Assembly: GCF_005377625.1 (NCBI RefSeq)
Contig: NZ_CP040098.1
Span: forward strand, 2,531,279 to 2,595,278
DNA from: Desulfoglaeba alkanexedens ALDC
GTDB lineage: Bacteria > Desulfobacterota > Syntrophobacteria > Syntrophobacterales > DSM-9756
Length of the DNA stretch: 64,000 nucleotides
Direction of reading: 5' to 3'
Under the pieces are notes generated by a model that was not told the origin of the DNA, ran no database searches, and worked only from the letters and a program-made list of their open reading frames with translations. A program made the position numbers and the translations under genes. Shown here piece by piece: positions 24,027 through 43,816 of this stretch (positions are counted from its first letter, which is position 1; every line of letters begins with the position of its first letter).

Positions 24027-24166
24027 GGGGATCCTTGGCCTCGCCGGCTCAGATTCTCAGAAACCGGGCCGGCCTCTTACTTCAGCTCCGGGGGGAGCGT
24101 GACCATGCCGATGGTCACGGCACCGGGCATGGTCCATGGAGCCTGGCTGTCCGTGGATTTCCCCGT

Positions 24167-25366: not shown

Positions 25367-25440
25367 TGTTGTGCTCTCGGAAAAATATTAGTATCTACGG
25401 CCACAATCGGAGCCGATATAAAAAAGCAAAATAATATTTT

Positions 25441-25588
25441 GGTAGTGTTCTAAAGTGGAGACCTTAAGCAAAAAGGATAACGAAAGTCAAAAAATCCCCC
25501 TCTCCCCCCTCCCCTTAATCCCCTCCCACAAGGGGAGGGGAAATAGACTTTAGCATCAAATATTAGGTCTATTATTTTCTACGCTACC
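25441..25588. mobile_element. MITE-like element, copy B
   Basis: A 148-bp copy in the opposite orientation to copy A, with ends GGTAGTG and CGCTACC, flanked by AATATTTT (25433-25440) and AATATTTC (25589-25596), seven of eight bases identical. It lies just upstream of the CDP-alcohol phosphotransferase start, so it may have altered that gene's promoter. Confidence 0.75.
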
Positions 25589-25710
25589 AATATTTCGATA
25601 CTTGCAATCACGATCAACCGACTTTGCCAACACTCTAGCAGATTGCCGGGCCGACGGCAAGGAAAACGGCCTGGGGCCGGCCTGGGGGGTCAGGGGAGGT
25701 TGATATACAG

Positions 25711-26168
<458 letters not shown>

Positions 26169-26214
26169 TAAAAACAACCCGATGGCATAAATCCAACCCG
26201 TGAGTGATCGGATC

Positions 26215-27285: not shown

Positions 27286-27311
27286 AAACTCCATGACCGA
27301 GCCGTCCTGCT

Positions 27312-28526
27312 TTATGGATTATTCTTGGGGACGGTTTGCAAAAACACACCAAATCGGTTCATTTCTTCGAGCCGACAACTCCAGACAAGCTTGCCCTCGT
27401 GAACGGTGATATCCGGGCAACCATCGCACATGTCCTGCCGTCCGTCCGGTTCGAAGTTTACGGGTTGGATGATCATGAAGCTCTGAAGGTGGGCCGGGCG
27501 GAACATGGTCGCCGGCTTGGAGATGATCTCCTTCATTATATTGACCAGGGCCTTCCTCATTTTTCGATCCACAAGCCCGAAAAGCGAGGCAAGTTTCCCC
27601 CGCGCCATGCTTTTGGGAGTGGCGTAAGACAAGTAAGTGCCCGTAAAGATATGGTTGAAGGTCTGGATCAACTCCATGAGCTTGGGAGACATGTACCCCA
27701 TGACCTTCCCATTGAAAACGATTCGGTTGGCCAAAAGCCACTTAAGAGAATCCGGATTAGCGGTCCCGTTCAAGTAGGCCGCTGGTTCATACGCAGGGTC
27801 CGCTTTTCGGATCATTTCCACGGCATCTTCCGCCATCAGCGGCTTCGCCCCTCCCCACTCGCTTTCATGGTACATGAGGCTCGGATCGACTTTTTGACCT
27901 CGGGCATAGAAATCGAAATCCCCTGTCAGATTGGGAGATCGATAAAGAATAAACACCATGGTATGGACGATATCAGCGTGTTCTTGAGCCCAACGCACCA
28001 TATTGGGTATTTCCGGAAGTGTCTTCTCCGATATCGTGGCATTGAAGGAACAGGCGATCCCGCCGGCCTTGGCCAGCATACTTGCGTAATGATACCGCAG
28101 GTCATTCAGCTCCGTTTCTGTTGTCGCATTTACGTTGGGTCGATCCTGGCTCGTATCGATATGGAAGGTGAAACCGAAGACCCCCGCTTTCTTGAGGTCC
28201 TTCAATAGAGATTCCGTGAGTGCAACTCCATTCGTGTTCACAATGGGCTTCCAACCCATTTCCTTGACCATTCTTACCGTTTCGACAATATGAGGGTAGA
28301 CGAGAGGGTCACCTCCGGCGATACTCATGCAGTCGCTTTTTCTCAATCTTCGGAAGACTTCCAGGTCGGAACGGACTTCCTCCAGAGACCTATGGCCTTT
28401 CGGGTCTCTGTAACATCCCTTACATCTCAGATTGCATAGACTGGTCGGCTCCAGCCAGGAAATGCCATTATCCGCGTAATTCCACGGAAGCCTGTAGTAC
28501 TCAAGATGATTCAGTTTAAAGGCCAT
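27312..28526 (-). CDS. Radical SAM enzyme in the lipid locus
   Basis: Radical S-adenosylmethionine enzyme, 404 residues. The cluster motif C31-NLR-C35-KG-C38 is canonical, followed by the SAM-binding strand MSIAGGDPL and VNTNGVAL. Near the C-terminus MCDGCPD and WSCRLEE give three further Cys for a possible auxiliary cluster. It superficially recalls HpnH-like lipid enzymes and radical SAM proteins working on lipid substrates, but the reaction cannot be predicted. It is single, convergent with the lipid kinase gene (26 bases apart). A lipid-modification role is inferred from context. Confidence 0.82.
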   Translation of the reverse strand: MAFKLNHLEYYRLPWNYADNGISWLEPTSLCNLRCKGCYRDPKGHRSLEEVRSDLEVFRRLRKSDCMSIAGGDPLVYPHIVETVRMVKEMGWKPIVNTNGVALTESLLKDLKKAGVFGFTFHIDTSQDRPNVNATTETELNDLRYHYASMLAKAGGIACSFNATISEKTLPEIPNMVRWAQEHADIVHTMVFILYRSPNLTGDFDFYARGQKVDPSLMYHESEWGGAKPLMAEDAVEMIRKADPAYEPAAYLNGTANPDSLKWLLANRIVFNGKVMGYMSPKLMELIQTFNHIFTGTYLSYATPKSMARGKLASLFGLVDRKMRKALVNIMKEIISKPATMFRPAHLQSFMIIQPVNFEPDGRQDMCDGCPDITVHEGKLVWSCRLEEMNRFGVFLQTVPKNNP

Positions 28527-29241
28527 ATTTTATAACTTTCTTTATTTGTTTTGCAGATGCAGGAGCATAGCGAAGTAACATCTCAATAACCACGGGTAAC
28601 CCGTCTGGATTCCGGCCTTCACCGGAATAATGGAAGGCTGGCTTGTTTCGTCATTCCGGCCTTCGCCTAAATCCAGAAAGGATGTGGTATCACCCAGGTT
28701 TATTGGGTCAATACATAGCAAGAAGTTCCTTATGTGTCAAGGCCAATCCGGCCGGCTTTTTCTCTATTATGGCACCAAATTTAATACAAGGCGACTCTTG
28801 ATCTATAGCTCAAGTTGGTCTAGTTATAGGCAACAGTTTGGTCACACTTCTTTCCGACGGACTCAACCTTGTTCCCAAGCTCCAGCTTGGGAACACAACT
28901 GTGCAGAAGCTCCAGCTTCGATTCCCATGAGGTCGTTCCCAAGCCGGAGCTTGGGAACGAGGGGAAGCCGGCTCCTACAGGGGATCGGCCCGGTTTTCCG
29001 CCAAGGGGATCGGCCCGGTGTTCCGTCAAGGGGCCGGCCTGATTTTGCGTTGTCGGCCCGGGTTTTCCGTTATCGGTAGGAGCGGGCTTGCCCGCGACCC
29101 GTAAAACCGGCAATGCCGCGTTCATTCTGATCGCCGGCAAGCCGGCTCCTACGGGGCAAGCGTCTCCTAGGAACATAGGGATGTAGGGGCGCAGCGCCGC
29201 TGCGCCCCTACGCGAAAAACGGACACCCCATCCCCAGAAGG
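28527..29241. repeat. Gene-free region packed with dispersed repeats
   Basis: No gene. It begins with short CCGGCCTTCACCGGAAT-type palindromes (28605-28675). Two dispersed palindromes with spacer follow (28872-28893 and 28936-28957), then a palindromic pair of the GTAGGAGCGGGCTTGCC / GGCAAGCCGGCTCCTAC type (29074-29152). It ends with GTAGGGGCGCAGCGCC and the inverted 50-bp unit that runs into the next gene. Confidence 0.65.
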
Positions 29242-30213
29242 GTGAAGGGTATTCTCAGACAGCCTCCAAAGCCAGGTCCTTCCGGGAATAAGGGGAAAGA
29301 AACGTTTGTTCTTGCCCATATATCGGACCTGCATCTGACTTCTCCGAGCGGGGTACGCCCCACCTTGCTGCTCAACAAACGCCTGCTCGGCTATCTCTCC
29401 TGGCAGTGTCGCCGCCGCCACATCCACTTGCCGCACGTTCTTGACGCGCTGCTGCTGGACCTGGCCGAAGCGGCGCCGGACCATGTGGCCGTAACCGGAG
29501 ACCTGACCAACCTGGGGTTGCCGGACGAGTTCCGTCAGGCAGCCCTGTGGCTCAAGCGCCTTGGCCCGCCGGAAAAGGTTACAGTCGTCCCCGGCAACCA
29601 CGACGCCTACGTCGCCACGTCATGGCATGAAACATTCAGCCGGTGGGCGCCCTATCTGGCGGGAGATGATGACAGCGCCGGCGCCGGGGTCTATCCGATT
29701 TTGAGGATTCGAGGCCCGGTGGCATTGATCGGTCTTTCATCCGCCCGCCCCAGCATGCCGTTTGTCGCCGTGGGAAGTCTTGGCCGCCGGCAACTGGCGC
29801 GCTTCGAAGAAATGCTTGAGCGGACCGGCCGGCTCGGCCTGCTGCGCATTGTCCTGATCCACCATCCGCCGATTCCCGGCAGTATCTCCTGGCGCAAGCG
29901 CTTGACCGACGCCCCCCTCTTCGCCGAGGTTGTTGCCCGCCGGGGGGCGGAACTGATTCTTCACGGGCATGCCCACGTATCCAGGGAGGATGAACTCGTC
30001 GCCGGGACGCATTCTATCCCCGTTCTCGGGGTTCCCTCGGCGTCCAATGCCGGCCCCATCCCGCAGTGCACGGCCCGTTATCACGTTTGCCGTTTTCAAC
30101 GCACAGCAGACGGTTGGCGGCTGCATCTCGCCGTTCGCGCCTACGCTCCAGCCCAGCACGCATTCATAGCCGGCGCGGAGAAGGAAATCCGCCTGCCTGC
30201 CCGCAATCTCTGA
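29242..30213 (+). CDS. Calcineurin-like metallophosphoesterase
   Basis: Binuclear metal phosphoesterase, about 323 residues. All metal motifs are present: SDLHL, GDLTNLG, PGNHDAY, LIHHPP and LHGHAHV. There is no signal peptide, so it is cytoplasmic or peripheral. In this locus it may dephosphorylate a lipid or sugar-phosphate intermediate, as LpxH-type enzymes of this fold do; that is inference. The only start before the core is GTG 29242, which lies inside a dispersed repeat, so the first dozen residues are repeat-encoded and the native 5' end may have been replaced. Confidence 0.8.
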   Translation: MKGILRQPPKPGPSGNKGKETFVLAHISDLHLTSPSGVRPTLLLNKRLLGYLSWQCRRRHIHLPHVLDALLLDLAEAAPDHVAVTGDLTNLGLPDEFRQAALWLKRLGPPEKVTVVPGNHDAYVATSWHETFSRWAPYLAGDDDSAGAGVYPILRIRGPVALIGLSSARPSMPFVAVGSLGRRQLARFEEMLERTGRLGLLRIVLIHHPPIPGSISWRKRLTDAPLFAEVVARRGAELILHGHAHVSREDELVAGTHSIPVLGVPSASNAGPIPQCTARYHVCRFQRTADGWRLHLAVRAYAPAQHAFIAGAEKEIRLPARNL

Positions 30214-30240
30214 CGAATCCTCCGCAAGCCGGTTCTCGTT

Positions 30241-31306
30241 TCAGGGGATGCTTCGCGTCAGGAAAACCCCGCCGGCGAGGACAGCCAAAGCAGGAACGAG
30301 AGTTGTCCAGGCGGGCGGGATCTGGAAGATCAGGCCGGCATAGCCGAGAATCTGATTGAGAAAGAAGAACGCCACACCGATAACGGCCCCGACCACGATG
30401 AGCCAGCCAAGACTGGAACTGCGGGGCGAGCGGCACACAAATGGAAGCGATATCATGATCATCGCCCCGGTCATCACCGGAAGGCTCAGCTTCTGCCAGA
30501 GCGCCAGCCGGTAGCGCCCCGGATTTTCTCCCCGTTTCTCCTGGTTGCCGATGACTCTGGCGAGTTCCGTCAAAGAGAGGCTCTGCGGTGGCAGCACCAG
30601 TTGAACCGCCTCCTTGCTGGTGAGCAGGCCGGGGATGGCAAGCTGGGGGATTTCGCGCACCGCCACGCCCTGGTCCGTGATCGTATCCTCCCGCACTCCG
30701 CGCAATACCCATTCCCCCTGGGGGCCGATCTTTGTCTCCCGAGCATGGATATAGCGCGTCAGCCTATTCCCCTCGTCGAATTCGTAGATATCGGCTGCCT
30801 GAGCCCCATGTTCCCTGCTGGTGCGCAGGTTTATAAAGCGCCTTCCGCTTCTCGTCCAGAAATCCCCTCGCGGCAGAATGGTTCCCGACTCTGAAAGAGC
30901 GGTTTCACGCAGGGTCCACGCTGTCTGCTCCAGGGACGGAATAACGAACTGAGCGCCAAGCAGGAGGGCGAGAAGAGTAAGAAGTGCAGGTTTCGCAAGA
31001 GCCCACCCGACACGTTGGATCGAGATTCCGCTTGCCAGCATGGCAAGCAGTTCGAGGTTTTTGGACAGCAGCCCAAGAGTGATGATGCTTCCGAGCAGAG
31101 CACTCGGCGGAGCCAGATCCATCATGCGGTCCGGTAGGGTCAGAGCAACATACAGCACGGCGTCGCTTGAGTTGTAGCTCCCCTTGCCGACGTCGTCCAG
31201 TTGGACGGCCAGCTCAAGAAAGCTGAGCAGCCCGGCCAGGACAAGATTCACAGAGAACCATATGCGCAAAAAAAACAGCCGCCAGATAACGGTCGAGAAT
31301 GTTCAC
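30241..31306 (-). CDS. lptG: LptG-like permease, with an apparent frameshift in a T8 run
   Basis: Inner-membrane permease of the LptF/LptG (YjgP/YjgQ) family: N-terminal helices, a periplasmic jellyroll-like middle (about 130-240) and C-terminal helices. The expected start is GTG 31306, overlapping the lptF stop as GTGA and reading VNILDRYLAAVF, the classic LptG opening. That frame shifts at eight T residues (complement of 31268-31275). The body continues in the frame starting LRIWFSVNLVLAGLL, and removing one T would join them perfectly. Possible causes are a sequencing error, a real mutation or slippage at the T run. A TTG at 31269 could also start the body alone. Confidence 0.78.
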
Positions 31307-32421
31307 GACAAGGGCTCCCCACGGATCAAGGAGCGGCGCCCCAAAAGACGGCTCAAGGGATTGCGTCCCGGAAGCATGATCAGAACGAGAACGCCGAGAA
31401 GGGCCGTCACCCACCATATGCCGGGCACGGCGCCGACCACCTGTTCTTCGACCCAGGTCTTGGCTATCAGGTTGAAGTTGTAAAAAACAAAAAATAACAC
31501 GATGGCCAAGGTCACTTTGCCGTATTTGTCGCGCCGCGGGGCAACCCGGCTCAGGGGGATCGCCAAGAGGGCCAGCAGGACGGTGGAAATGCCCGTAGAA
31601 AGCCGCCATTGTAACTCCGCCACATCTTCCGGCTCCGGCGATCGGGCCAGATGCAGAGTTGATGCGGCCTTGCGGCGATATTCGGCGGGAGGGGTCCGGT
31701 CGGTATCGAGCCGGAATACGTTTTCACTGAAGTGGATCATGAGATCGCCTTCCGTCTTCTGATTCAGCACGTAGTGGTAGCCATCCCGGAAAACGATGAC
31801 CTTCTGTCCCTCTCCCGGACCATTGATCTGGTGGGCGTTGCGGGCCGTTGTCACCTTCCGGCTGTCCGATTCCAACTCCCATACCCAGACTTTTACGGCC
31901 CGGTTCTCCGCCGGATCAAGCTTTTCGGCAAAAAAGACCACTTCTTCGCCCAACTCGTAAAACCGGCCGGCCTCAACCTTGGCGATGTCGAATTCCTCTT
32001 TCCCTTTGGCTTCCAGGGCATAAATTTTCTCATAAGCCCAGGGACGGACGAAGAGTGAAAGAGAGGCAACCACGAGGCCAAGGAAAAGTGCCAGGGACAA
32101 AACCGAGATGACGATTCGCCCCGGACCCACGCCGCATGCCTCCATGGCCGTAATCTCGCTGTCGGCATGCATGCGGCTTAAGGCAACCACCACCGCGAGA
32201 TAAAGCGTAACCGGAAGAAGTACTTCAAGGGCTATGAGCACCTTGAGCCCAACCAGGGCGACAACCGTTTCGCCGGAAAGGAGGCCGTTGACCGCATCGT
32301 TAAGAAAGCGGACGGCGCTGTAACCGGCGAAAATCATGGTCAAAACCGCGCAGACCTCCACCATCCGGGCCGTAATTTCCCGTACGATATAGCGCTCCAG
32401 AATCAAAACGGCTCCAAACAC
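31303..32421 (-). CDS. lptF: LptF-like permease
   Basis: LptF-family membrane protein of 372 residues, partner of LptG in extracting lipopolysaccharide from the inner membrane together with the ATPase LptB. It begins with LILERYIVREI and has three N-terminal helices. The soluble periplasmic domain (about 130-270; YELGEEVVFFAEKLD, VIVFRDGYHYVL) is followed by three C-terminal helices (VLLALLAIPLSRVAPR ... KTWVEEQVVG). It is the first gene of an lptF-lptG operon divergent from the nucleotidyltransferase gene. Its placement among sphingolipid genes raises the possibility of a sphingolipid cargo. No lptB, lptC or lptA is in the window. Confidence 0.88.
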   Translation of the reverse strand: MFGAVLILERYIVREITARMVEVCAVLTMIFAGYSAVRFLNDAVNGLLSGETVVALVGLKVLIALEVLLPVTLYLAVVVALSRMHADSEITAMEACGVGPGRIVISVLSLALFLGLVVASLSLFVRPWAYEKIYALEAKGKEEFDIAKVEAGRFYELGEEVVFFAEKLDPAENRAVKVWVWELESDSRKVTTARNAHQINGPGEGQKVIVFRDGYHYVLNQKTEGDLMIHFSENVFRLDTDRTPPAEYRRKAASTLHLARSPEPEDVAELQWRLSTGISTVLLALLAIPLSRVAPRRDKYGKVTLAIVLFFVFYNFNLIAKTWVEEQVVGAVPGIWWVTALLGVLVLIMLPGRNPLSRLLGRRSLIRGEPLS

Positions 32422-32495
32422 TTCACTCGACTACTTTCCTTTCATGCTCGCTTTTCGCCCAAAGGCGATCCGCTCCCAAATCCGCTGAAATTGCC

Positions 32496-32524
32496 TTGAC
32501 GTTTACCGGTATTTTCGCTAGATT
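32496..32524 (+). promoter_or_regulatory. Sigma-70-like promoter for the ceramide-synthesis gene run
   Basis: TTGACG (32496-32501) and TAGATT (32519-32524) with 17-base spacing, 84 bases before the nucleotidyltransferase start, in the divergent gap with lptF. It is the only good promoter I see before the plus-strand run. Confidence 0.55.
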
Positions 32525-32607
32525 GGTAGCGTTATCGATAACATACTAAAACGGCATCCGGCAAGAGATGGTCGGTTATGGAAAGACGGAGAGGAGAATG
32601 AAGCAGC

Positions 32608-33366
32608 ATGAAAGCCATCATTCTCAGCGCAGGGCAAGGGAAGAGACTGCTTCCCTATACCGCTGAACGTCCCAAATGTATCGTTCCCATTCATGGTCGG
32701 GCCATGGTTGAATGGCAGATCGACGAACTGATCAAGTGCGGCGTCGAAGACATCTGCGTCGTGTTGGGCTACGGGGCCGACAAGGTCGAGCAACAGCTCA
32801 AGGACCGGTACGGACAAGGCGGTGTACGCACCCTTTTCAATCCCTTCTACTCCGTCGGTGACAACCTGAGCACCTGCTGGATCGCCCGTTCCGAGATGAC
32901 GGAGGATTTCATCCTCCTGAACGGTGACACCCTCTTTCAGGCCCCTGTCATGGAAACCCTCCTTGCCTCCGAGCGGCATCCAATAACGGTAACCATCGAT
33001 CGCAAAAACAGCTATGACGGCGATGACATGAAGGTCGTTCTGGATGGCGAGCGCCTGCTACGCATCGGCAAGGACCTCCCCCTCGACCAGGTTTGTGCCG
33101 AGTCGATCGGCATGCTGCTGTTCCGCGGAGAGGGGCCGGAGCTGTTCCGGCAAGCGGTGGAAGATGTCATGCGCCATCCCGCCGCCCTCAAGCGCTGGTA
33201 TCTGTCCGTTATCGACGAACTGGCCCGAAAGACGCCCGTCTGGACCTGCTGCATTGAAGGGTTGCTCTGGTGCGAGGTCGACTGCCCCGCAGACCTGAAA
33301 CATGCCGAAAAGGTGGTGCGCGCCATCGCGGATAGACAGGCCGGCGACATGCGCGGAGCGGTATAA
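32608..33366 (+). CDS. Nucleotidyltransferase of the NTP-transferase family (LicC/cytidylyltransferase-like)
   Basis: Sugar- or alcohol-phosphate nucleotidyltransferase of 252 residues. The signature loop ILSAGQGKRLLPYTAERPKC is complete (Gly-rich loop, Arg, Lys) and LLNGDTLF carries the metal-binding Asp. It most resembles small cytidylyltransferases activating phosphocholine, inositol-phosphate or glycerol-phosphate, which would supply the CDP-alcohol for the phosphotransferase at 24-25 kb (inference). ATG 32608 follows GAGGAG. It opens the long plus-strand run leading to spt. Confidence 0.82.
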   Translation: MKAIILSAGQGKRLLPYTAERPKCIVPIHGRAMVEWQIDELIKCGVEDICVVLGYGADKVEQQLKDRYGQGGVRTLFNPFYSVGDNLSTCWIARSEMTEDFILLNGDTLFQAPVMETLLASERHPITVTIDRKNSYDGDDMKVVLDGERLLRIGKDLPLDQVCAESIGMLLFRGEGPELFRQAVEDVMRHPAALKRWYLSVIDELARKTPVWTCCIEGLLWCEVDCPADLKHAEKVVRAIADRQAGDMRGAV

Positions 33367-33814
33367 GAGGTTGTCTGAGGGTATCCGTCATCCAATTGCG
33401 GATGGGTGCGGATCTTTTAGAACGACATCCAGGGTGAACCTCTGACGTAGATCCGGATGGCCTTGAAGCAGCAAGCGCATCAGGTCCGTTTCCCCTCGTT
33501 CCCAAGCTCCAGCTTGGGAACGCCCTGCCCGGGAAGCTCCAGCTTCCCTCGTGCTACAGCTGAAACGCGCTGTCTTTCTAGGGAGCTCGCCAGGATCTCG
33601 AAGTGGTCTTTCCCCTCGTCCCCAAGCTCCAGCTTGGGAACGGCCCCATGGGAATCGAAGCTGGAGCTTCTGCACAGCTGTGTTCCCAAGCTGGAGCTTG
33701 GGAACAAGAAAAAAGATCGCTGTCCCGGTTCGGTGAAATAAATTGAGAAAACGGTTGCGGGCCATGACCGGAGCGGCTCCTACGGACTCCCAAGTAAAGT
33801 ATTCCCGGATACCC
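33367..33814. repeat. Composite repeats before the ceramide synthase gene
   Basis: No gene. It holds a 40-bp unit around GATCTTTTAGAACGACATCC (also near 48575, inverted), three dispersed palindromes (33499-33520, 33619-33640, 33683-33704), and between them the unit with ACAGCTGAAACGCGCTGTC that recurs near 17840, 39335 and 47805. Confidence 0.65.
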
Positions 33815-34996
33815 ATGACCACCCGACCCCATGAATCGGCAACGGCCGAAAAGGACACTCCTTCAACTGGCTGGCTGGAAATCCTGCCGGTAGGCGACAG
33901 GGCTGCACGCCGTGAATTTTTGCATCTTCCCGGATCGCTGTATGCCCATGACCCGGCCTGGATTCCTCCCCTGCTCCTCGAATGCAGGCGGCATTTTTCA
34001 AAGAACAATCCCTATTTCAGACACGCCACGTTTCAGGCGTGGATCGCCAGGCGCGGAAAGAAAACCGTCGGACGCATCAGCGCCCAGGTGGACCGGCTCC
34101 ATCTGGAGCGATACGACGACCATACCGGTTTTTTCGGAATGCTGGAAGCGCAGGATGATCCGGAGGTCTTTCAAGCCCTTTTCGATACCGCTCAAGCCTG
34201 GCTGCGCGAATGGGGCATGAAACGCATCCGGGGGCCCTTCAACCTTTCGATCAATCAGGAATGCGGCTTGCTCGTCGAAGGCTTCGACACTCCCCCTGTC
34301 ATTATGATGGGGCATGCCCTTCCTTATTATTCCCGGCGTATCGAAGAACAGGGGTTTACCGCTGAGCAGGATCTCTTGGCCTATCGCATCGGGTCGGACT
34401 TTGCCGCGCCCCGTCATCTTGATGCGCTGAGCTCACGCGTTGCCGGACGGGTACGCCTGCGAACGATGCGTCGCCGGGAATTCATGGAAGACCTGGCAAT
34501 CCTCAAGGACATCTTCGAAGATGCCTGGGCCGATAACTGGGGCTTCCTGCCATTTACCGCAGAGGAGTTCAACGATCTGGGAAAAAGCCTCAAGCTCCTC
34601 GTGCCGACCGACTTTGTCCGTATCGCCGAAGTTGACGGCGAACCGGCGGCGATGATGGTGGTTTTCCCCAATCTCAACGAAGCGATCAGGGATCTGGACG
34701 GCAGGCTGTTCCCCCTGGGCTGGCTCAAATTGCTCTGGCGGCTCAAGGTGAGCGGCGTGAAAACCGGCCGTGTTCCGCTGATGGGAGTTCGGCGGCGTTA
34801 TCAAGGAAGCTATCTCGGGGCCATCCTGGCTCTGCTGCTGATAACGTCGCTACAGGATTCGGCGCGCCGCCGCGGCCTGGAAGAAGTAGAGACGTCCTGG
34901 ATACTTGAGGACAACATCGGAATGCGCACGATCATCGAATCGATCGGCGGGAAGTGCTACAAACGGTATCGCATTTACCGCAAGGACCTCGCTTGA
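33815..34996 (+). CDS. bcerS: Bacterial ceramide synthase-like GNAT-family acyltransferase
   Basis: Matches my recollection of the GNAT-like N-acyltransferase family that includes the Caulobacter ceramide synthase, which acylates the amine of 3-oxosphinganine. Key stretches are HLPGSLYAHDPAWIPPLL, a FSKNNPYFRHATFQAWIARR segment, the VGRISAQVDRLH strand, GFFGMLEAQDD, and the late acetyl-CoA-type region GVRRRYQGSYLGAILALL. About 393 residues, with no signal or membrane segment. ATG 33815 is the last good start before homology; the ribosome site is weak, and ATG 33764 is an alternative. The last 60 bases of the gene are duplicated downstream. Position next to spt, acpR, cerR and aasR supports the call. 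Confidence 0.8.
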   Translation: MTTRPHESATAEKDTPSTGWLEILPVGDRAARREFLHLPGSLYAHDPAWIPPLLLECRRHFSKNNPYFRHATFQAWIARRGKKTVGRISAQVDRLHLERYDDHTGFFGMLEAQDDPEVFQALFDTAQAWLREWGMKRIRGPFNLSINQECGLLVEGFDTPPVIMMGHALPYYSRRIEEQGFTAEQDLLAYRIGSDFAAPRHLDALSSRVAGRVRLRTMRRREFMEDLAILKDIFEDAWADNWGFLPFTAEEFNDLGKSLKLLVPTDFVRIAEVDGEPAAMMVVFPNLNEAIRDLDGRLFPLGWLKLLWRLKVSGVKTGRVPLMGVRRRYQGSYLGAILALLLITSLQDSARRRGLEEVETSWILEDNIGMRTIIESIGGKCYKRYRIYRKDLA

Positions 34997-35176
34997 GTGA
35001 TAGATCCGCTATTCCAGCTTGTTCCCAAGCTCCAGCTTGGGAACACAACGGTGCAGAAGCTCCAGCTTCGATTCCCATGAGGCCGTTCCCAAGCCAGAGC
35101 TTAGGAACGAGGGGAAAGTGCTACAAACGCTATCGCATTTACGGCAAGGACCTCGCTTGAGTGATAGATCCGCTGA
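34951..35176. repeat. Duplicated gene end flanking a palindrome pair
   Basis: The last codons of the ceramide synthase gene plus 14 bases of downstream DNA (34951-35012) recur at 35114-35175 with a few changes (both read GTGCTACAAACG ... CTCGCTTGAGTGATAGATCC). Between the two copies sit two dispersed palindromes (35022-35043 and the degenerate 35086-35107). The repeat pair therefore lies inside a target duplication of about 62 bp. Confidence 0.85.
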
Positions 35177-35177
35177 C

Positions 35178-35987
35178 ATGAACCCTGTTCCCGCATCGTT
35201 TGCCGCCGTTGTTCTCGCCGGCGACCGCGGCGCCGAAGACCCCCTCGTCAAGGCGGCCGGCGTCAGTTGCAAAGCGCTGGTTCCCGTTGCCGGGCGGCCC
35301 ATGATACTGCGCGTGCTCGATGCCCTCGAAAGTGCGGCTGCCATAGATTCATGCCTTGTATGCGGCTCCTCGGACCGCCTCCTGGGCAAATGCTCTGAAC
35401 TCGATGCCCGGATCGCTTCCGGAAAGGTTCGCTGGGTCGAAAACCAAGCATCGCCCAGCCGTAGCGCCCAAGCGGCTCTGGGCGAGCTGCCGCCCGACCG
35501 GCCGGTGTTGCTGGCCACGGCGGATCACGCACTCCTCACGCCGCAGATGGTCGATCATTTCTGCACCCGAGCCGCCCAATCGGGATGCGACGTCGTTGCC
35601 GGGCTCGCTCACGCCGAGATGGTGGCGGCAGCCTTTCCCGAAAGCCGCCGGACCGTAACGCGCCTTCGCGATGGCGGATACTGCGGATGCAACCTCTTTG
35701 CGTTGCTCACGCCCCGGGCCGGCAATGCGGTAACCTTCTGGCGGCGGGTCGAAAAGCAGCGAAAGCACCCCCTTAGAATCGTAAAATCACTTGGGTTGAT
35801 GGCTGTCCTGCGCTATCTTCTCGGCCGCTTGACCCTTGAAGAGGGATTGGCCCGCATGTCGTCCGTGATGGATGCCCGCGCCGGCGTGGTCTGGATGCCC
35901 GAGGCGGAAGCGGCGGTGGACGTCGACAAGGTCGAGGACTGGGTTCTTACGGAGAAGATCCTCTGTCTTCTCAATCGGAGTGACTGA
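35178..35987 (+). CDS. MobA-like nucleotidyltransferase
   Basis: NTP-transferase fold protein of 269 residues with a variant loop: FAAVVLAGDRGAEDPLVK, then CKALVPVAGRPMILRVLDAL, and ATADHALLTPQMVDHF for the metal Asp. MobA, GlmU and CDP-ribitol/choline-type enzymes share this layout. The C-terminal third (VKSLGLMAVLRYLLGRLTL ... VDVDKVEDWVL) resembles other small lipid-locus nucleotidyltransferases. ATG 35178 begins directly after the duplicated ceramide synthase tail. Together with the enzyme at 32608 it suggests two distinct activated head-group precursors, or one active and one accessory enzyme. Confidence 0.75.
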   Translation: MNPVPASFAAVVLAGDRGAEDPLVKAAGVSCKALVPVAGRPMILRVLDALESAAAIDSCLVCGSSDRLLGKCSELDARIASGKVRWVENQASPSRSAQAALGELPPDRPVLLATADHALLTPQMVDHFCTRAAQSGCDVVAGLAHAEMVAAAFPESRRTVTRLRDGGYCGCNLFALLTPRAGNAVTFWRRVEKQRKHPLRIVKSLGLMAVLRYLLGRLTLEEGLARMSSVMDARAGVVWMPEAEAAVDVDKVEDWVLTEKILCLLNRSD

Positions 35988-36282
35988 TTTTTTGCAGCAA
36001 AGTAATGGATTCCGGCTCCCGGATCGGGGTCTGGGACAGGTTTCGCCGGAATAACGGTAGGTTGGGTTGTTTCGTCATACCGGCGAGAGCCGGAATCCGG
36101 AAGGTTTGCCCCTGATGATTGAAATGTTACAAAATCCTTTCAGAGCACCGAGAAAGTGTGGTAGAAAAGCGTCCTCATAAAATTGAAGCTGTGCAATGAT
36201 GCAAAAAATGTGCTGTGTCGCCGGGATCTCCTACGGAGACAAGGCAAAGGCCGGGCAGAGTGGTTCTATGAAGGAACTTGAA
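35988..36282. repeat. Short intergenic repeat region
   Basis: It contains palindromic CCGGAATCC / GGATTCCGG units (36006-36105) related to those near 28610. No gene or clear promoter is seen. Confidence 0.5.
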
Positions 36283-38034
36283 ATGACGCCGACCGAAAAC
36301 TCCATCGCCTTGCGTCAAGGCGATTTTCAGACTCTGGCCGAGGCCCTCGATTATGCAGCCGAAGGCACGACGGGGATCAATTTCTATTCCGGGAAAGGGG
36401 CGCTTGAAGCCTCTCTCTCCTATGCGCAGTTGCGAGACGGTGCCCGGTCGCTGGCGCGCAAGCTCCTGGGGCTCGGCCTCGAGCGGGGCGAGCGGATGGC
36501 TCTGGTCGCCGATACCGATGCCGATTTTGTGCGCTTTTTCTTTGCCTGCCAGTATGCCGGACTGGTTCCCGTCCCGCTTCCCGCGGCTGTACATCTAGGC
36601 GGCCGCCAGGCCGTTATCGCCAATTTACGGAAACTACTGGTGTCCTGCGGAGCCAAGGCCGCAATGAGTTCCAGCTCTTTTTACCCCTTTCTGGCTGATG
36701 CCGCTGACGGTCTGAATCTGGTCCATGTCGGGGAACCAGCCGGCTTCGACGCCCTCCCGGAGACGGATTTGCCGCTGCAACATGCTCGTCCCGATGAAGT
36801 CGCCTACCTGCAATACACTTCGGGCAGCACCCGTTTCCCGCGCGGGGTTGTGATCACGCAGAAAGCGGTCATGGCCAACCTGAAAGGGATCATCCGCAAC
36901 GGGCTCGGTGTCCGCCCCGGAGACAGGTGCCTCTCATGGCTCCCCCTCTACCACGATATGGGGCTTGTGGGCTTTCTTCTCGCGCCGATGGCTTCGCAGC
37001 TTTCCATCGACTACCTGAGGACGCGGGATTTCGCCATGCGTCCGCGGCTCTGGCCGGCATTGATTTCCAAGAACCGCGCCACAATCTCCTACAGCCCCAC
37101 CTTCGGATACGCCCTATGTGCGCGGCGCATCCGCCCCACTGAAATCGAATCGTACGATCTGAGTTCCTGGCGCATTGCCGGGATCGGTGCCGAGCCCATC
37201 CGTCCGGATATCCTCGAACATTTCGCCCGGCTGCTGGAACCGGCCGGTTTCCATTCCCGGGCCTTTGTCGCCTCGTACGGCCTGGCGGAATGTTCCCTTG
37301 CCGTCAGCTTCGCCCCCCTGGGCGAAGGCCTGGTGATCGATCGCATAAGTGCCGAGACTCTTGCGAAAAACGGAAAAGCCATTCCCGTTGAAGATAGTAA
37401 AAACAATGGAAAGACGAGAGAACTCGTCTTCTGTGGCGCACCACTTCCCGGGCACGAGATCGAGATCCGCGACGAGTGGGGGAGGGTCCTGCCCGAGCGG
37501 CGCTGCGGGGTGCTGCATGTGCGCGGACCCAGCGTCATGAGCGGATACTTCGGCGACCGGGAATCCACAAAGGAAGTCCTGTCTCCCGACGGTTGGCTCA
37601 ATACCGGAGACCTCGCCTATCTGGCCGGCGGCCAGGTGATCATCACCGGCCGCAAAAAAGACATGATCATCATCAACGGCCGGAATATATGGCCGCAGGA
37701 TATTGAATGCATAGCCGAGCAGATGCCGGGAATCCGCTCGCGGGACGCTGTCGCATTTTCCATCGGCGAGGTAGGAGAAGACGAGACCGTAGTTCTGGTC
37801 GTTCAGTGCCGTCAGTTCGACGGGACGGAACGCGACCGCCTTGTGCAGGCCCTGCGCGGTCGCGTCAGGGAAGAATTCGGCATCGATTGCATGGTCGAGC
37901 TCGTCCCCCCGCACACCCTGCCGCAAACGTCATCCGGCAAGATATCAAGAACCGTGGCGCGGGCCGATTTCCTCCGGCGGAACCAGCATCTGTTCTCAGC
38001 CCCCCTGCAGTGTGTCGGCCGAACCGGGAGCTAG
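36283..38034 (+). CDS. aasR: Fatty acyl-AMP ligase / acyl-ACP synthetase of the ceramide pathway
   Basis: AMP-forming acyl ligase of the FAAL type, about 583 residues. AMP-binding motifs are YLQYTSGSTRFPRGVVIT, WLPLYHDMGLVG (a FAAL/long-chain hallmark), SYGLAECSLAVSF, and TGDLAYLAGGQVIITGRKKDMIIINGRNIWPQD, with the catalytic Lys in TSSGKISRT near the end. In the Caulobacter pathway such an enzyme charges the dedicated acyl carrier protein. ATG 36283 is preferred (AAGGA seven bases before); ATG 36268 and 36196 are in frame. The stop lies five bases before the next gene's ATG. Confidence 0.85.
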   Translation: MTPTENSIALRQGDFQTLAEALDYAAEGTTGINFYSGKGALEASLSYAQLRDGARSLARKLLGLGLERGERMALVADTDADFVRFFFACQYAGLVPVPLPAAVHLGGRQAVIANLRKLLVSCGAKAAMSSSSFYPFLADAADGLNLVHVGEPAGFDALPETDLPLQHARPDEVAYLQYTSGSTRFPRGVVITQKAVMANLKGIIRNGLGVRPGDRCLSWLPLYHDMGLVGFLLAPMASQLSIDYLRTRDFAMRPRLWPALISKNRATISYSPTFGYALCARRIRPTEIESYDLSSWRIAGIGAEPIRPDILEHFARLLEPAGFHSRAFVASYGLAECSLAVSFAPLGEGLVIDRISAETLAKNGKAIPVEDSKNNGKTRELVFCGAPLPGHEIEIRDEWGRVLPERRCGVLHVRGPSVMSGYFGDRESTKEVLSPDGWLNTGDLAYLAGGQVIITGRKKDMIIINGRNIWPQDIECIAEQMPGIRSRDAVAFSIGEVGEDETVVLVVQCRQFDGTERDRLVQALRGRVREEFGIDCMVELVPPHTLPQTSSGKISRTVARADFLRRNQHLFSAPLQCVGRTGS

Positions 38035-38038
38035 GGGC

Positions 38039-39007
38039 ATGGTTGAACCCGTACGGGAGTCGCGCACTGATGCCGCGCCCGCTCACGTCACAACCGTCGC
38101 CATGACCGGTGGGACCGGCTTCATCGGCAAATCCCTCATTCATCGCTTCCTGCGGGAAAATATTCGTGTCAGGGCGCTGGTACGCCCGGCCTCCATATCG
38201 TCGTGCTTCAACGCGCCGGGGTTGTCATGGATTCATGGCGAGTTGAACCATGAGGAGAGCCTCAGGCAACTTCTCGACGGGGCCTCGGCCGTTATTTATT
38301 GTGCCGGATCCGTTCGCGGCGCATCGATGTCCGACTTTGTGCCGGCCAACGTTTCCGGAGTGGCAAAGATCGTACACATGATGCGGAATTCGGTGGATTC
38401 TCCGCGCTTTCTTCTGATCTCCTCTCTGGCTGCAAGATCGCCGGAACTTTCGCACTATGCCGCAAGCAAGCGGCAAGGGGAAGAGGTCCTGCGCAGCGCG
38501 GCGGACGGGCTCGACTGGACGATCATCCGGCCGCCGGCGGTGTATGGCCCTGGAGATCGCGAAATGCTTTCCTTGTTGCAATGGCTCCGGCGGGGAATCG
38601 CCATTGTCCCGGCAGGTGGGCGAGGGCGCTTTTCGCTGATTTTCATCGACGACCTTGCGGAGGCGGTCCTGAGCTGGCTGGTGGGCGGCGCCGGCAGTGG
38701 CGGCTGCTTTGAGCTGCACGACGGCAAGGCGGGAGGGTACTGCTGGGAAGAGGTCTGTGAAATAGCCTCTGAGCTCTACCGGCGTCCCGTGAGACGTGTC
38801 GATGTTCCGCGGATCGCCCTGGATGCCGTGGCCCATGTCAACCTGGCCCTTTCCCGTCTCGCCGGATACCTGCCGATGCTGACGCCGGGCAAGGTCAGAG
38901 AACTGTGCCATGAAGACTGGGTCTGCGATCATTCGGATTTCAGCCGCGTCACCCGCTGGGCTCCGGAAGTCGGCCTGCGCGAAGGGTTGCTTCGTACGCT
39001 CGGGTGA
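38039..39007 (+). CDS. cerR: NAD-dependent epimerase-like ceramide reductase
   Basis: Extended short-chain dehydrogenase, 322 residues. The Rossmann motif TGGTGFIGKSL begins near residue 23, the YxxxK pair is in HYAASKRQGEE, and the preceding Ser is in LLISSLAARS. In Caulobacter the equivalent gene beside spt is proposed to reduce the 3-oxo group after ceramide formation. The start overlaps a GGGAG ribosome site just after the acyl ligase stop, so the two are translationally coupled. The MITE at 39104 follows and separates it from the acyl carrier protein gene. Confidence 0.82.
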   Translation: MVEPVRESRTDAAPAHVTTVAMTGGTGFIGKSLIHRFLRENIRVRALVRPASISSCFNAPGLSWIHGELNHEESLRQLLDGASAVIYCAGSVRGASMSDFVPANVSGVAKIVHMMRNSVDSPRFLLISSLAARSPELSHYAASKRQGEEVLRSAADGLDWTIIRPPAVYGPGDREMLSLLQWLRRGIAIVPAGGRGRFSLIFIDDLAEAVLSWLVGGAGSGGCFELHDGKAGGYCWEEVCEIASELYRRPVRRVDVPRIALDAVAHVNLALSRLAGYLPMLTPGKVRELCHEDWVCDHSDFSRVTRWAPEVGLREGLLRTLG

Positions 39008-39103
39008 CGAGTTCATCAAGCTCATTGCGGCGAGGGCGCCGCTCCTACAGGAACAAGAAACCGCAGGCCCGACTTTTATGAGCTTGTTTTCGGACAAGCT
39101 CTT

Positions 39104-39472
39104 GGTAGCGTTCTAAAGTGGAGACCTTAAGCAAGAAGGTTAACGAAAGTCAAAAAAAGCCCCCTCTCCCTTGATGGGAGAGGGTTGGGGTGAGGGTGGG
39201 AAAATTGCTTCTTGTTCCCAAGCTCCAGCTTGGGAACACAACTGTGCAGAAGCTCCAGCTTCGGTGAGCCCGTTCCCAAGCCAGAGCCGGGGAACGAGGG
39301 GTAAGACCACTTCGAGATCGTGGCGAGATCCCTAGAAAGACAGCGCGTTTCAGCTGTATCAGGAGGGAAGCTGGAGCTTCCCGGGCAGGGCGTTCCCAAG
39401 CTGGAGCTTGGGAACGAGGGGAAACGTTAGAATTTGGCATCAAATATTAGGTCTATTATTTTCTACGCTACC
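39104..39472. mobile_element. MITE-like element, copy C, with nested palindromes
   Basis: Ends GGTAGCG and CGCTACC, flanked by perfect 8-bp duplications AAGCTCTT (39096-39103 and 39473-39480). The interior (about 39205-39425) holds three dispersed palindromes and the AGACAGCGCGTTTC unit, so a composite repeat inserted into the MITE and lengthened it to 369 bp. It sits between cerR and acpR, within the presumed operon. Confidence 0.85.
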
Positions 39473-39499
39473 AAGCTCTTAATGCAGAGGAACGAAGCT

Positions 39500-39751
39500 G
39501 TGTCCCAAAAAGACTATGCGGAAATATTTGAAGAGGTCAAGGCGATCCTCAGGCGCTTTGACAAGGTTCCGGAATGCATCCGAGAGGAAATGGAAATTGT
39601 CAACGATCTTGGTCTGGACTCCCTTCGGGTGATGGAACTTGTTCAGGAAGTAGAGGATGTGTACGATATTTCCTTCACCTTGAACGAGCTCGCCGAAATC
39701 CGGACGGTCAGGGATTTCGTTTTGCGGATTCAAAAAGAGATCGAGGCCTGA
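39500..39751 (+). CDS. acpR: Dedicated acyl carrier protein of the ceramide pathway
   Basis: Small acidic carrier protein, about 83 residues, with the phosphopantetheine attachment Ser41 in DLGLDSLRVMEL and the helix-3 segment YDISFTLNELAEIRTVRDF. GTG 39500 has GAGGA eight bases upstream; ATG 39482 lies in that site and inside the target duplication of the adjacent MITE. The gene ends three bases before spt, so the two are surely co-translated. In Caulobacter a special carrier protein supplies the acyl chain to serine palmitoyltransferase. Confidence 0.88.
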   Translation: MSQKDYAEIFEEVKAILRRFDKVPECIREEMEIVNDLGLDSLRVMELVQEVEDVYDISFTLNELAEIRTVRDFVLRIQKEIEA

Positions 39752-39754
39752 GAC

Positions 39755-40966
39755 ATGGGACTCTTCGATAAACTCGCATTCATTTCCCAAGCGCGCCAGG
39801 CGCTGGAGGAGATGGGGATCGATCCATTCAACGTGGAGATTCAGAAGATCCTCTCCCCAACCGAAGCCCGTATAGCCGGCCGCAAGGTGCTTCTAGCGGG
39901 TACCAACAACTACCTCGGGCTGACCTTCGATCCCCGGTGCATCGAGGCGGCCTGTCAGGCTACCCGCTCGGAAGGGACCGGCACCACCGGCTCGCGAACG
40001 GCCAATGGCACATTCGCCGGGCATCGCGCCCTGGAAAGGGAACTGGCCGAGTTCTTCGGCTGCGCCAAAGCCATCGTCTTTTCCACGGGTTTTGTGGCCA
40101 ACCTGGGCGTCATCTCCACCCTCACCGGCCCTGGGGACACCTTGATTATAGACGGCGACTCCCATGCCAGCATCTACGACGGCTGCCGGATGGGGGGAGC
40201 CGACATCCTCCGGTTCCGGCACAACGACACCGCCGACCTCGAAAAGCGACTGCGCCGCCTGGGTGACCGCACAAAGAATACCCTGGTCATCGTCGAGGGG
40301 ATCTACAGCATGCTCGGCGACCGGGCGCCTCTGGCCGAAATCGTCTCACTGAAGAAACAATACGGCTTCTGGCTCATGGTCGACGAGGCCCATTCGCTGG
40401 GGGTTCTCGGCCAAAATGGCAGGGGGCTTGCGGAAGAGTGCGGCTGTATGGATGACGTCGATTTCATCATCGGCACCTTCAGCAAAAGCCTCGGGGCCAT
40501 CGGCGGATTCTGCGTGAGCAACCATCCGGAGCTGGACCTGGTACGCTATGCGAGCCGCTCCTACCTCTTTACCGCGTCTCCGTCCCCGGCCACCATCGCC
40601 TCGGTGCGCCGAGCGCTTCAGATTCTTGCCGCCGGAACGGATCTGCGCGAACGTCTCTGGGCAAACGCCCACAGGCTCTATGAAGGGCTTTCGGAACTGG
40701 GATACCGCCTCGGCCCCGAACCGACACCGGTGGTTGCCGTGCACATGGGATCGAAGGAAGAAACCCTCGCTTGCTGGAAAGAACTCCTCGAGAGCGGCAT
40801 CTATGTCAACCTGGTATGGCCGCCGGCAGCTCCCAAGGGGGAAAGCCTGCTGCGCTGCAGCGTCAGCGCGGCCCATACGGAGGAACAGATCGAGCGGCTG
40901 TTGACCGCATTCGCAGAACTTGCCCACCGTAGCGCCGCACCGCCATCCCCTGATACTCATGAGTAG
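39755..40966 (+). CDS. spt: Serine palmitoyltransferase
   Basis: PLP-dependent alpha-oxoamine synthase that condenses serine with an acyl thioester to 3-oxosphinganine, the first committed sphingolipid step. The 403 residues match bacterial Spt. The features are NNYLGLTFDPR, GTGTTGSRTANGTFAGH, the cofactor Asp/His in VDEAHSLGVLG (near 210), and the PLP Lys244 in GTFSKSLGAIGGF. The family also contains KBL and BioF; assignment to Spt rests on the adjacent acpR, cerR, aasR and ceramide synthase. The stop overlaps the ATG of a relic frame derived from a glycosyltransferase gene. Confidence 0.88.
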   Translation: MGLFDKLAFISQARQALEEMGIDPFNVEIQKILSPTEARIAGRKVLLAGTNNYLGLTFDPRCIEAACQATRSEGTGTTGSRTANGTFAGHRALERELAEFFGCAKAIVFSTGFVANLGVISTLTGPGDTLIIDGDSHASIYDGCRMGGADILRFRHNDTADLEKRLRRLGDRTKNTLVIVEGIYSMLGDRAPLAEIVSLKKQYGFWLMVDEAHSLGVLGQNGRGLAEECGCMDDVDFIIGTFSKSLGAIGGFCVSNHPELDLVRYASRSYLFTASPSPATIASVRRALQILAAGTDLRERLWANAHRLYEGLSELGYRLGPEPTPVVAVHMGSKEETLACWKELLESGIYVNLVWPPAAPKGESLLRCSVSAAHTEEQIERLLTAFAELAHRSAAPPSPDTHE

Positions 40967-41099
40967 ATCACTCCTCACGCCCCACCCAAGAAAAATAGGC
41001 ATTTTCATGCGCTCCATAATCGCCGACGCCAAGCGGTGCCGCATCAAGGCACAAGCGGCGGTCGCAGGCCGCTACGGGGGGATACCATGCCGCGGATAG
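40959..41099 (+). pseudogene. Internally deleted glycosyltransferase relic
   Basis: A 46-residue frame opens with an ATG overlapping the spt stop. Its first 20 codons (MSRSLLTPHPRKIGIFMRS) are nearly those of the second glycosyltransferase at 42300. It then jumps to a stretch (AKRCRIKAQ) equivalent to that gene's middle (TKRRRIKAQ, near 42790). Thus some 430 bases are deleted. It now acts at most as a coupling leader for the next gene. Confidence 0.75.
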
Positions 41100-42307
41100 C
41101 CCTGTACCTGCCCAATTTCGCCGGAGGAGGCAGGGAGCGGGTCATGCTGCACTTGGCGGAAGGGTTTCTGGCCGGGGGATACTCGGTCGACCTGGTGGTC
41201 AACCGGGCCGAGGGCGCCTATCTGGGCCGGGTGCCGCAGCGCGCCGATGTGGTGGAACTCAAACGCCACAACGTAATCCTGGGCCGGCTTCTCGCCTTGC
41301 GCGCGACCTCGCCTAAGGGGTGGCGTGCCTTAGCAAGGCCGGTGTTGTTTTCGCGTAAGCCGAGTGGGGAATTACGGTATCTGGGTTCGTTGGTCCGCTA
41401 TTTGCGTACATATCACCCAGCAGGTTTGATCGCCGCCGGCCCCTATTGCAACCTGAACGCCGTCTGGGCCAGGCGGCTGGTGCAGGTCTGCACCCGCGTG
41501 ATGCTGACCGCGCACAACACGCTGTCGCGCATGATCGCGGACAAGGGGCGCAAGGGCGCGAAGTGGCGCGAGCTGCCGTTCCTGATCGGGTGCATCTACC
41601 GGCAGGCCGACGCCATCGTTGCCGTTTCGCAGGGTGTCGCGGATGACTTGAGCAGCACTGCAGGGTTACCGCGCGAGCGTATCACCACCATCTACAATCC
41701 GGTGGTGACGCCCGAGTTGGCCGCCCTTCCCGCGGCACCGGCACCGCATCCCTGGCTGGAAGACGGCGGGCCTCCGGTCATCGTCGCCGCCGGCCGGCTG
41801 GTACCGCAGAAGAACTTCCCACTGCTCATCGAGGCGTTCGCCCGGCTGCGCCGTAGGCGGCTGGCTCGGCTGCTGATACTGGGCGAGGGCGAGCAGCGGG
41901 GCGAGCTGGAGGCGCTGGCGTCGCAGCTGAGCATCGCGGCCGATGTGGCGCTCCCGGGGTTTGTGGCCAATCCCTACGCCGCCTTCGCCCGGGCGGCGCT
42001 GTTCGTGCTGTCGTCGGACTACGAAGGGTTGGGCAACGTCGTGATCGAGGCCCTGGCCTGCGGCTGTCCGGTGGTGAGCACCGACTGCCCCAGCGGCCCG
42101 GCGGAGATCCTGGATAACGGCCGCTACGGCGAACTGGTGCCGGTGGGCGACGCCGCGGCGCTGAGCGCGGCGATGGCACGGGCGCTGGACGCCCCGCCGC
42201 CAAGGGAGCTCTTGCGCCGCCGTGGCGATGACTTCACTCTGGAAGACGGCGCCCGGCGTTATCTCGACCTGCTGCTGCCGGGGCGAGGAACCTCAACCCA
42301 TGAGTAG
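41087..42307 (+). CDS. GT4-family glycosyltransferase 1
   Basis: Retaining GT-B glycosyltransferase of family 4, about 406 residues. The N-domain starts RIALYLPNFAGGGRERVML and the donor-binding C-domain shows VAAGRLVPQKNFPLLIEAF, LLILGEGEQR, and the E-x7-E region YEGLGNVVIEALACGCPVVS. ATG 41087 is downstream of a G-rich ribosome site. Its stop overlaps the start of the next glycosyltransferase (ATGAGTAG). It probably adds a sugar to the ceramide or its head group (inference). It is richer in GC than its neighbour, and the last third is nearly identical to it over 75 bases. Confidence 0.87.
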   Translation: MPRIALYLPNFAGGGRERVMLHLAEGFLAGGYSVDLVVNRAEGAYLGRVPQRADVVELKRHNVILGRLLALRATSPKGWRALARPVLFSRKPSGELRYLGSLVRYLRTYHPAGLIAAGPYCNLNAVWARRLVQVCTRVMLTAHNTLSRMIADKGRKGAKWRELPFLIGCIYRQADAIVAVSQGVADDLSSTAGLPRERITTIYNPVVTPELAALPAAPAPHPWLEDGGPPVIVAAGRLVPQKNFPLLIEAFARLRRRRLARLLILGEGEQRGELEALASQLSIAADVALPGFVANPYAAFARAALFVLSSDYEGLGNVVIEALACGCPVVSTDCPSGPAEILDNGRYGELVPVGDAAALSAAMARALDAPPPRELLRRRGDDFTLEDGARRYLDLLLPGRGTSTHE

Positions 42308-43523: not shown

Positions 43524-43816
43524 GCTCTGCCGGTGGCGAAGACAGCCCACGCAGCTTGGTGATTCCCCATGACCACACCTGACTCCGACCTTCCGCCGGC
43601 AGCTCAGGCTTGCTGTATTGAGGATGTTGCAACCCCCTTGTTCCCAAGCTCTGGCTTGGGAACAAGGGGAATTCTATTTCCCCTCCCCTTGTGGGAGGGG
43701 ATTAAGGGGAGGGGAATGTAACTGACTTGGGAACAAGGGGAACGCTTGAGCCCTGCCGGTCGCGACAGTGTGTGTCAAGGCAGATGTCGCACGAAGTCAC
43801 AGAGGTTGCCGTCAAT
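43524..43816. repeat. Intergenic repeats after the glycosyltransferases
   Basis: It holds a palindrome copy (43641-43662) and a fragment of the MITE core (about 43668-43722, GGGAGGGGATTAAGGGGAGG). Near 43741 there is a second, short copy of AACGCTTGAGCCCTGCCGG, which first occurs at the end of the glycosyltransferase gene (43517). Confidence 0.6.

Follow-up and report, generated by a model that had tools for sequence, protein, structure and literature searches.

The spread of short palindromic repeats, and their entry into tightly packed operons, are poorly understood. REPs and BIMEs occur as more than 100 short palindromic copies per genome, in intergenic positions and in head-to-head pairs. 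No REP-type enzyme is known to leave a target duplication, and REP insertion with target duplication was not described in the excerpts of the literature that were searched. MITEs leave a short target duplication of fixed length. The insertion sequences IS1549 and IS1634 are reported to be flanked by direct repeats of 8 to 514 bp, with no mechanistic model (PMC2266710, excerpt), and enzymes of the IS200/IS605 type make no larger target duplications according to the excerpt of PMC2817692. Template switching of the MMBIR/FoSTeS kind (PMC2621351) gives short homology at the joint, an insert from outside, a local duplication and composite inserts.

The repeat analysed here was found in Desulfoglaeba alkanexedens ALDC, in a window of 64,000 nucleotides (contig NZ_CP040098.1, positions 2,531,279 to 2,595,278 of the forward strand), where one copy lies inside a duplicated gene end. 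As in REPs and BIMEs the hairpins are short, perfect, mostly intergenic and arranged in head-to-head pairs, and the degenerate palindrome GTTCCCANGCNNNNGCNTGGGAAC had 457 exact matches in the genome, compared with none for the reversed control pattern. The family differs from them in that no GTAG/GGAG or CGTC head was seen beside the hairpin (outer ends; the window flanks are without GTAG or GGAG), and no gene for a RAYT (REP-associated tyrosine transposase) flanked by two copies was found. With MITEs it shares its imperfect inverted repeats at the termini (TTCCxCyTyGTTCCCAAGC), a length of about 107 bp in the consensus of 47 aligned copies (TTCCACCTTG-hairpin ... hairpin-GAGGGGAA) and a non-coding, dispersed nature, but 65 complete copies showed no target duplication of fixed length. 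A parent insertion sequence with the element's ends was not found in the IS1634-type family searched, whose copies have other ends. IS1549 and IS1634 are similar in their direct repeats of tens of bp with lengths varying by insertion, and IS1634-type genes are present in this genome; however, their ends differ, and duplication is here the exception (9 of 147 palindrome clusters). The resemblance to MMBIR/FoSTeS includes microhomology at the repeat-end joint, amounting to 2 bp or more in seven of the seven loci with a shared layout, whereas the joining end is here in every case the outer end of a single repeat family and the events cluster at gene edges.

The duplicated gene end and its empty site

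The gene upstream of the junction, with 393 codons and a stop counted from the ATG used in this analysis, had been called a ceramide synthase gene in the first-pass annotation. Its product had no Pfam match and an acetyltransferase match below the threshold only; the name is kept as putative in view of a serine palmitoyltransferase gene in the neighbourhood (39755-40966). The palindrome pair lies inside a 62-bp duplication of the end of this gene, as had been claimed, and the outer coordinates then given (34951-35176) were right to within 2 bases. The two copies (Table 1) are identical at 59 of 62 positions (95%), with a start-to-start spacing of 164. Chance was excluded with E = 8e-26 for the 600-bp downstream stretch, the window serving as control, and the 62-mer had two matches only in the DNA stretches searched, both at this junction.

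The 102 bp between the copies are the palindromic repeat, which fits the gap exactly. The left copy begins in the gene end, and the left end of the repeat abuts position 35010, which in the single-copy state is separated by 3 bp from the next gene's ATG; insert and right copy together again end 3 bp before that ATG. The right copy begins within the repeat's own end (GAGG followed by GGAAA), so that this boundary is ambiguous by up to 5 bp, and the family consensus, which ends near 35117 (GAGGGGAAA), reaches into the beginning of the right copy. Both neighbouring genes were left intact by the insertion. As single-stranded DNA the insert has a strong fold (z = -5.9), and both of its outer hairpins are of the GTTCCCAAGC...GCTTGGGAAC type. 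A consensus scan of the junction gave neither a terminator nor a promoter. REPs located at most 15 nt from a stop codon were reported to stall ribosomes (PMC12306157, excerpt); stalling is not expected here because the first hairpin begins 24 nt past the stop of the upstream gene.

Table 1. Features of the junction and of comparable duplications (window positions, unless marked as genome coordinates)
Feature	Position	Strand	Duplication (bp)	Joint overlap	Remarks
Upstream gene, putative bacterial ceramide synthase, sphingolipid cluster	33815-34996	+			ORF; 46 orthologous loci
Left copy of duplication	34949-35010	+	62		Last 15 codons, stop TGA (34994-34996), 14 bp past stop
Inserted composite palindromic repeat	35011-35112	+			Absent in L064-L066
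Perfect hairpin GTTCCCAAGCTCCAGCTTGGGAAC	35021-35044	.			Matches degenerate palindrome pattern
Inner imperfect hairpin around AAGCTCCAGCTT	35051-35074	.			Third, smaller
Second hairpin GTTCCCAAGCCAGAGCTTAGGAAC	35085-35108	.			1 mismatch to pattern
GGAAA common to repeat's outer end and target	35113-35117	+			L064: GGAAAGT
Right copy of duplication	35113-35174	+	62		Seamless into leader and ATG of next gene
Downstream gene, MobA-like NTP transferase	35178-35987	+			ORF and Pfam match
Second window example, left copy	43515-43539	+	25		Last 2 codons and stop of glycosyltransferase ORF 42222-43523
Hairpin inside second window insert	43640-43663	.			
Second window example, right copy	43741-43765	+	25		Directly after repeat end (AAGGGG, then AACGC)
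Straddling duplication	712160 (genome)		31	GGTGGAAT	
Straddling duplication	1685575 (genome)		45	GAAA	
Straddling duplication	2070552 (genome)		49	AA	
Straddling duplication	2479105 (genome)		31	AA	
Straddling duplication	2566227 (genome)		62	GGAAA	Window junction
Straddling duplication	2574793 (genome)		25	AA	Window 43515
Straddling duplication	2848273 (genome)		66	GAA	

A protein scan of genome contigs with the product of the upstream gene gave 46 loci. The closest one, on contig DCWA01000011.1 of a Desulfobacteraceae MAG (L064; protein 92% identical, junction about 93%), had the 62 bp once, lacked the repeat and showed a native continuation into the next gene. Two more distant loci from Desulforhabdus sp. 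TSK (L065 and L066) had neither the duplication nor the repeat. The relatives searched that belong to the same family gave no match here. Three partial loci were left out. The other 43, the testable orthologues, were searched over about 600 bp for another copy of the gene end and over 800 bp for a palindrome, and neither turned up in any of them (L104 offers 258 bp of downstream sequence only). The first-pass annotation had regarded duplication and insertion as coupled, an idea that relatives carrying the duplication without the palindromes would have undermined; no such relative occurred among the 43, and the empty site of the MAG agrees with it. At 5 positions both window copies have the same base and L064 has another, and at 3 positions the window copies themselves differ (the left copy being the odd one at 2, the right copy at 1). 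This places the duplication after the split from L064; an assembly echo is excluded as well, because its copies would be identical. Given the empty site and the same arrangement at several other places in this genome, the duplication and the insertion of the repeat most likely arose together.

The MAG contig matched the window over positions 23080-40897 only (18 kb), mostly at 91-95%, and 40 kb from elsewhere in the same MAG gave no match to this genome comparable to that block. Either the block would have been horizontally shared or the MAG may be mixed. It counts against the explanation favoured below that the only close empty site lies in a single 18-kb block of a MAG, the rest of which was non-homologous where tested. 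Within the block the MAG has the repeat family once, at a place matching window positions 26018-26099. Further inserts of the window relative to the MAG were found at 33365-33711, without target duplication, and at 39017-39471, with a 7-bp repeat.

The block is made up of sphingolipid-type genes (matched by the L064/L157 contig, G031), and its left edge at 23080 adjoins a copy of the palindromic repeat (22977-23058). At 35956-36130 the window carries a member of another inverted-repeat family (GGATTCCGGCTC ... GAGCCGGAATCC), which is inserted relative to the MAG contig and has an imperfect repeat of 8-10 bp at its edges.

The repeat family and the duplications around it

With the 301-base junction sequence as query, 77 matches were obtained in the same genome, more than 40 of which were near full-length copies of the insert with 92-98% identity. 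A slightly narrower palindrome pattern was present in only 5 of 55 genomes of the same class (451, 23, 3, 3 and 1 copies), and the family is thus patchy and has expanded in the genome of D. alkanexedens. Outward from the hairpins follows GAGGGGAA or AAGGTGGAA. The outer flanks of 214 distinct ends, which had been pre-selected for a GAGG or AAGG start, were mainly GAGGGGAA (81) or AAGGTGGA (55); when a looser pattern was used, 115 of 221 ends had GAGG and 83 had AAGG.

Several other arrangements were observed in the genome. Tandem arrays of the repeat and its flank were present at L037, L120, L121 and L167, with units of about 65, 161-162 and 181 bp. A second repeat family, the ends of which are bounded by CTAG (CTAGGAGCTTGTCCGAGAA ... 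CTAG), occurred at L047/L208 and many other places (L020, L022, L039, L043), and the palindromic repeat is often nested inside it. In these cases the repeat was joined at GAA(A)TTGCG, and about 30 bp were lost instead of gained. The region 195000-197500 (L206, L062) contains an ORF for a Y1 transposase of 213 aa amid many TGGTGCGTT...ACGCACCCTACG palindromes, and this is likely a RAYT gene with its own, different REP family. Copies of the IS1634 family lie in tandem at 764416-767418 (L227, L229), where the second overlaps the end of the first and one end of an IS1634 copy is repeated over 384 bp. At 2640055-2640738 (L179) a 22-bp repeat had 10 matches in one stretch, possibly representing a CRISPR-like or other regular array.

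The frequency of flanking duplications was determined in 113 merged stretches (879,533 bp, 26% of the genome) with 147 palindrome clusters, consisting of 34 blind stretches (680,000 bp, 52 clusters), 78 stretches around palindromes and the window. Pairs of direct repeats whose copies matched more than one stretch or gave more than three hits were dropped, which reduced 193 raw pairs to 19 locus-private ones. Nine of the 19 straddle a palindrome cluster, corresponding to 9 of the 147 clusters, and the proportion was 9 of 12 for pairs with a gap of at least 100 bp. In the blind stretches and the window, 4 of 7 pairs with such a gap straddled a cluster, compared with 0.38 expected (P = 0.0002), and the targeted stretches had 5 straddling pairs compared with 0.4 expected. 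The other 10 pairs are short segmental duplications without the repeat between their copies and occur at low density. A 63-bp repeat in the window (40955-41017 and 42296-42358, 89%), located at the ends of the serine palmitoyltransferase gene and the following glycosyltransferase gene, was put down to a paralogous-gene remnant and was not counted; it looks like the start of a paralogous glycosyltransferase gene that was left behind.

When 65 complete composites were inspected with 140-bp flanks, abutting direct repeats of at least 15 bp were present at the window copy only, and those of at least 12 bp at 2 of the 65 copies, compared with 1 of 320 shuffled pairings. A target duplication of fixed length was rejected on these 65 copies. 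Together with the variable private repeats they bear out the earlier view that the duplication is not an ordinary one of fixed length. Flanking duplications exist at nine clusters (two of them doubtful), and most copies are without them. Duplication is not the usual insertion mode of this family.

The two doubtful cases were left out of the comparison of junctions. At 2124630 a different repeat family is contained in the duplicated segment, which is not adjacent to a repeat end, and at 230527 the duplication is older and lies near the start of a 32-codon ORF, its second copy following a truncated repeat. In the other seven of the nine straddling pairs (Table 1) the second copy, as read from the gene side, has its beginning at the repeat's outer end with an overlap of at least AA, a dinucleotide that makes up 0.056 of the dinucleotides there. 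The repeat ends at the joint were GAGG/GAGGGG or AAGGTGG with small variants; the GGAAA overlap of the window junction refers to the sequence of the relative and has one mismatch to the present left copy. In six of the seven the gene-side copy spans the stop codon of an ORF (110 to 452 codons), and in the seventh (2848273) it is a leader whose end lies 4 bp ahead of the ATG at 2849692, which is in line with the earlier claim that the upstream gene keeps its end. Gene edges were taken from a home-made gene caller and are rough, and the association with them was recognised only in hindsight, which weighs against the explanation favoured below. Of 75 clusters for which a neighbour had been called on each side, 23 are no more than 62 bp away from a gene edge. 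Composite inserts occur at six of these seven loci, with pieces of CTAG-end repeats, a C-rich repeat, extra hairpins and, at 2848273, a gene for a PIN-domain toxin, and the far joint of the inserts is ragged.

The last of these structures (2848273-2849687, L225) has 66-bp direct repeats around an insert of 1.29 kb (2848335-2849621) with five palindromes and composite cargo, namely the gene for the PIN-domain (VapC-like) toxin and a small neighbouring ORF. In a second genus (G029) 1 of 14 loci examined had a single hairpin enclosed by a 40-bp repeat with 80% identity. The repeat lies between genes that, from their Pfam matches, are presumably fabF and rpiB, spans the fabF stop and reaches the rpiB ATG. 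The joint is not at an intact repeat end, so that this locus supports duplication at gene edges and not the AA rule.

Origin of the duplication

The explanation that we favour, with a probability of about 0.55, is a rare microhomology-anchored insertion with target duplication, brought about by template switching or break repair. A REP/BIME-like element would have entered the tight operon junction, and the same event would have duplicated 57-62 bp of the target. DNA synthesis or break repair at the junction would have copied the gene end and then switched to the element or captured it. The element would have been left via its outer end, with its GGAAA pairing with the GGAAA in the last codons of the gene, and synthesis would then have run through the gene end and the leader a second time. 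We infer both the order of these steps and the enzyme involved. Variable lengths (25-66 bp) and composite inserts are as expected for template switching, and the overlap at the joint and the rarity of the events are also explained by template switching or microhomology-guided repair. Repair or replication slippage had been proposed in the first-pass annotation; the structure fits break repair or a template switch by which outside DNA is introduced, but a tandem slip does not give it alone. End joining by Ku and target-primed reverse transcription are disfavoured, as neither Ku (PF02735) nor a reverse transcriptase (RVT_1, PF00078) had a match in the genome, the assembly of which is 97% complete. 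Counting against the favoured explanation, the window element has two whole ends, as expected from a dedicated enzyme but not necessarily from a random switch. The microhomology was only 2 bp at 3 of the 7 loci, and no donor was singled out among the numerous family copies, mostly 92-98% alike; both points were counted on the same side. The use of the outer end of the repeat as the joining point in 7 of 7 loci likewise hints at an enzyme by which a defined end is produced.

Such an enzyme is central to the main rival explanation, in which a transposase makes a long, variable staggered cut like that of IS1549/IS1634 and the element is its miniature non-autonomous relative. The whole ends of the window element and the constant joining of the repeat's outer end to AA at the target speak for it, and the genome had 12 matches to IS1634-family transposases, 6 of them over the cut-off. 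However, the resident IS1634 copies begin with CTCAAGTTTTACAGTG and read CTCATCTTTGACAGTG inward from the other end, unlike the TTCC ends of the element, and two isolated copies that were examined had no evident flanking repeat; on these grounds a miniature IS1634 relative was rejected. Long private flanking repeats at only 9 of the 147 clusters, abutting repeats of 15 bp or more in 1 of the 65 complete composites, and mostly composite inserts with ragged far ends speak against a long-stagger transposase also in general, although an unknown enzyme of this kind keeps a minor probability. Still less probable is a history in two steps, by which a tandem T-E-T-E of gene end (T) and element (E), or a T-T of the gene end alone, arose and then lost the second element, or received the element exactly between the copies. 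Palindromes are prone to deletion, and the tandem arrays of element and flank mentioned above provide precedents, but the sequence past the right copy is as in the empty site, with no scrap of a second element, so that its loss would have had to be exact without guiding repeats. A T-T state was not found among the 43 orthologues, and insertion of the element exactly at a T-T joint is unlikely.

Insertion by a RAYT, with the duplication made later by gap repair of a single-stranded target, would account for the BIME-like appearance of the high-copy hairpins in head-to-head pairs, and there were six Y1 transposase matches, L062 having a variant palindrome nearby. Against it stand the lack of larger target duplications with IS200/IS605-type enzymes noted above (PMC2817692, excerpt) and the lack of a GTAG/GGAG head in the family. 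None of the six Y1_Tnp loci was flanked by the repeat on both sides and two (L059, L062) were on one side, in an assembly that is 97% complete and may miss a gene; L062 itself is surrounded by a different repeat family. A RAYT origin was rejected for want of a Y1 gene with the repeat on both sides, and we consider it very improbable. The low-density segmental duplications, 10 of the 19 listed pairs, would be the precedent for a coincidence of an old duplication with a later, unrelated repeat insertion, but the exact fit of the element, the same polarity at other loci and the enrichment over background leave this explanation with hardly any credibility.

Under template switching or break repair, insertions with duplication would survive at gene edges in that the upstream gene keeps its end and the downstream gene its leader, because an insertion that cuts off the last codons, or the leader 3 bp ahead of an ATG, would be harmless only if the duplication supplied both. 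Survival of this kind follows equally from repair and from a long-stagger transposase. As a general reason for the tolerance of the repeats at operon junctions, which the first-pass annotation had suggested, the duplication fails, most family copies being without a flanking duplication, and the general spread of the family is not accounted for by duplication-coupled insertion. We propose only tentatively that there is a distinct mode of palindromic-repeat spread, in which (GG)AA in a gene's last codons or leader serves as the anchor for one end, 25-66 bp of target are copied twice, the gene edge is rebuilt and composite cargo is carried; a similar layout is present in a second genus. No description of this layout of long duplications with REPs or palindromes was found in the excerpts of the literature searched; a query with ten letters of the palindrome gave, among the matches listed, other subjects, mostly probably primer tables, and none on the repeat.

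The family is best described as REP/BIME-like and without a recognised RAYT; some of its insertions come with a long target duplication, for which one end serves as the anchor. The filled site, its empty counterpart and the parallel cases in one genome provide direct junction evidence for an insertion coupled to a long duplication, and they offer a simple reason for the survival of such insertions at gene edges. The one-end rule, with AA at the joint, is testable, and a genome with very many insertions such as this one is suited to testing it.
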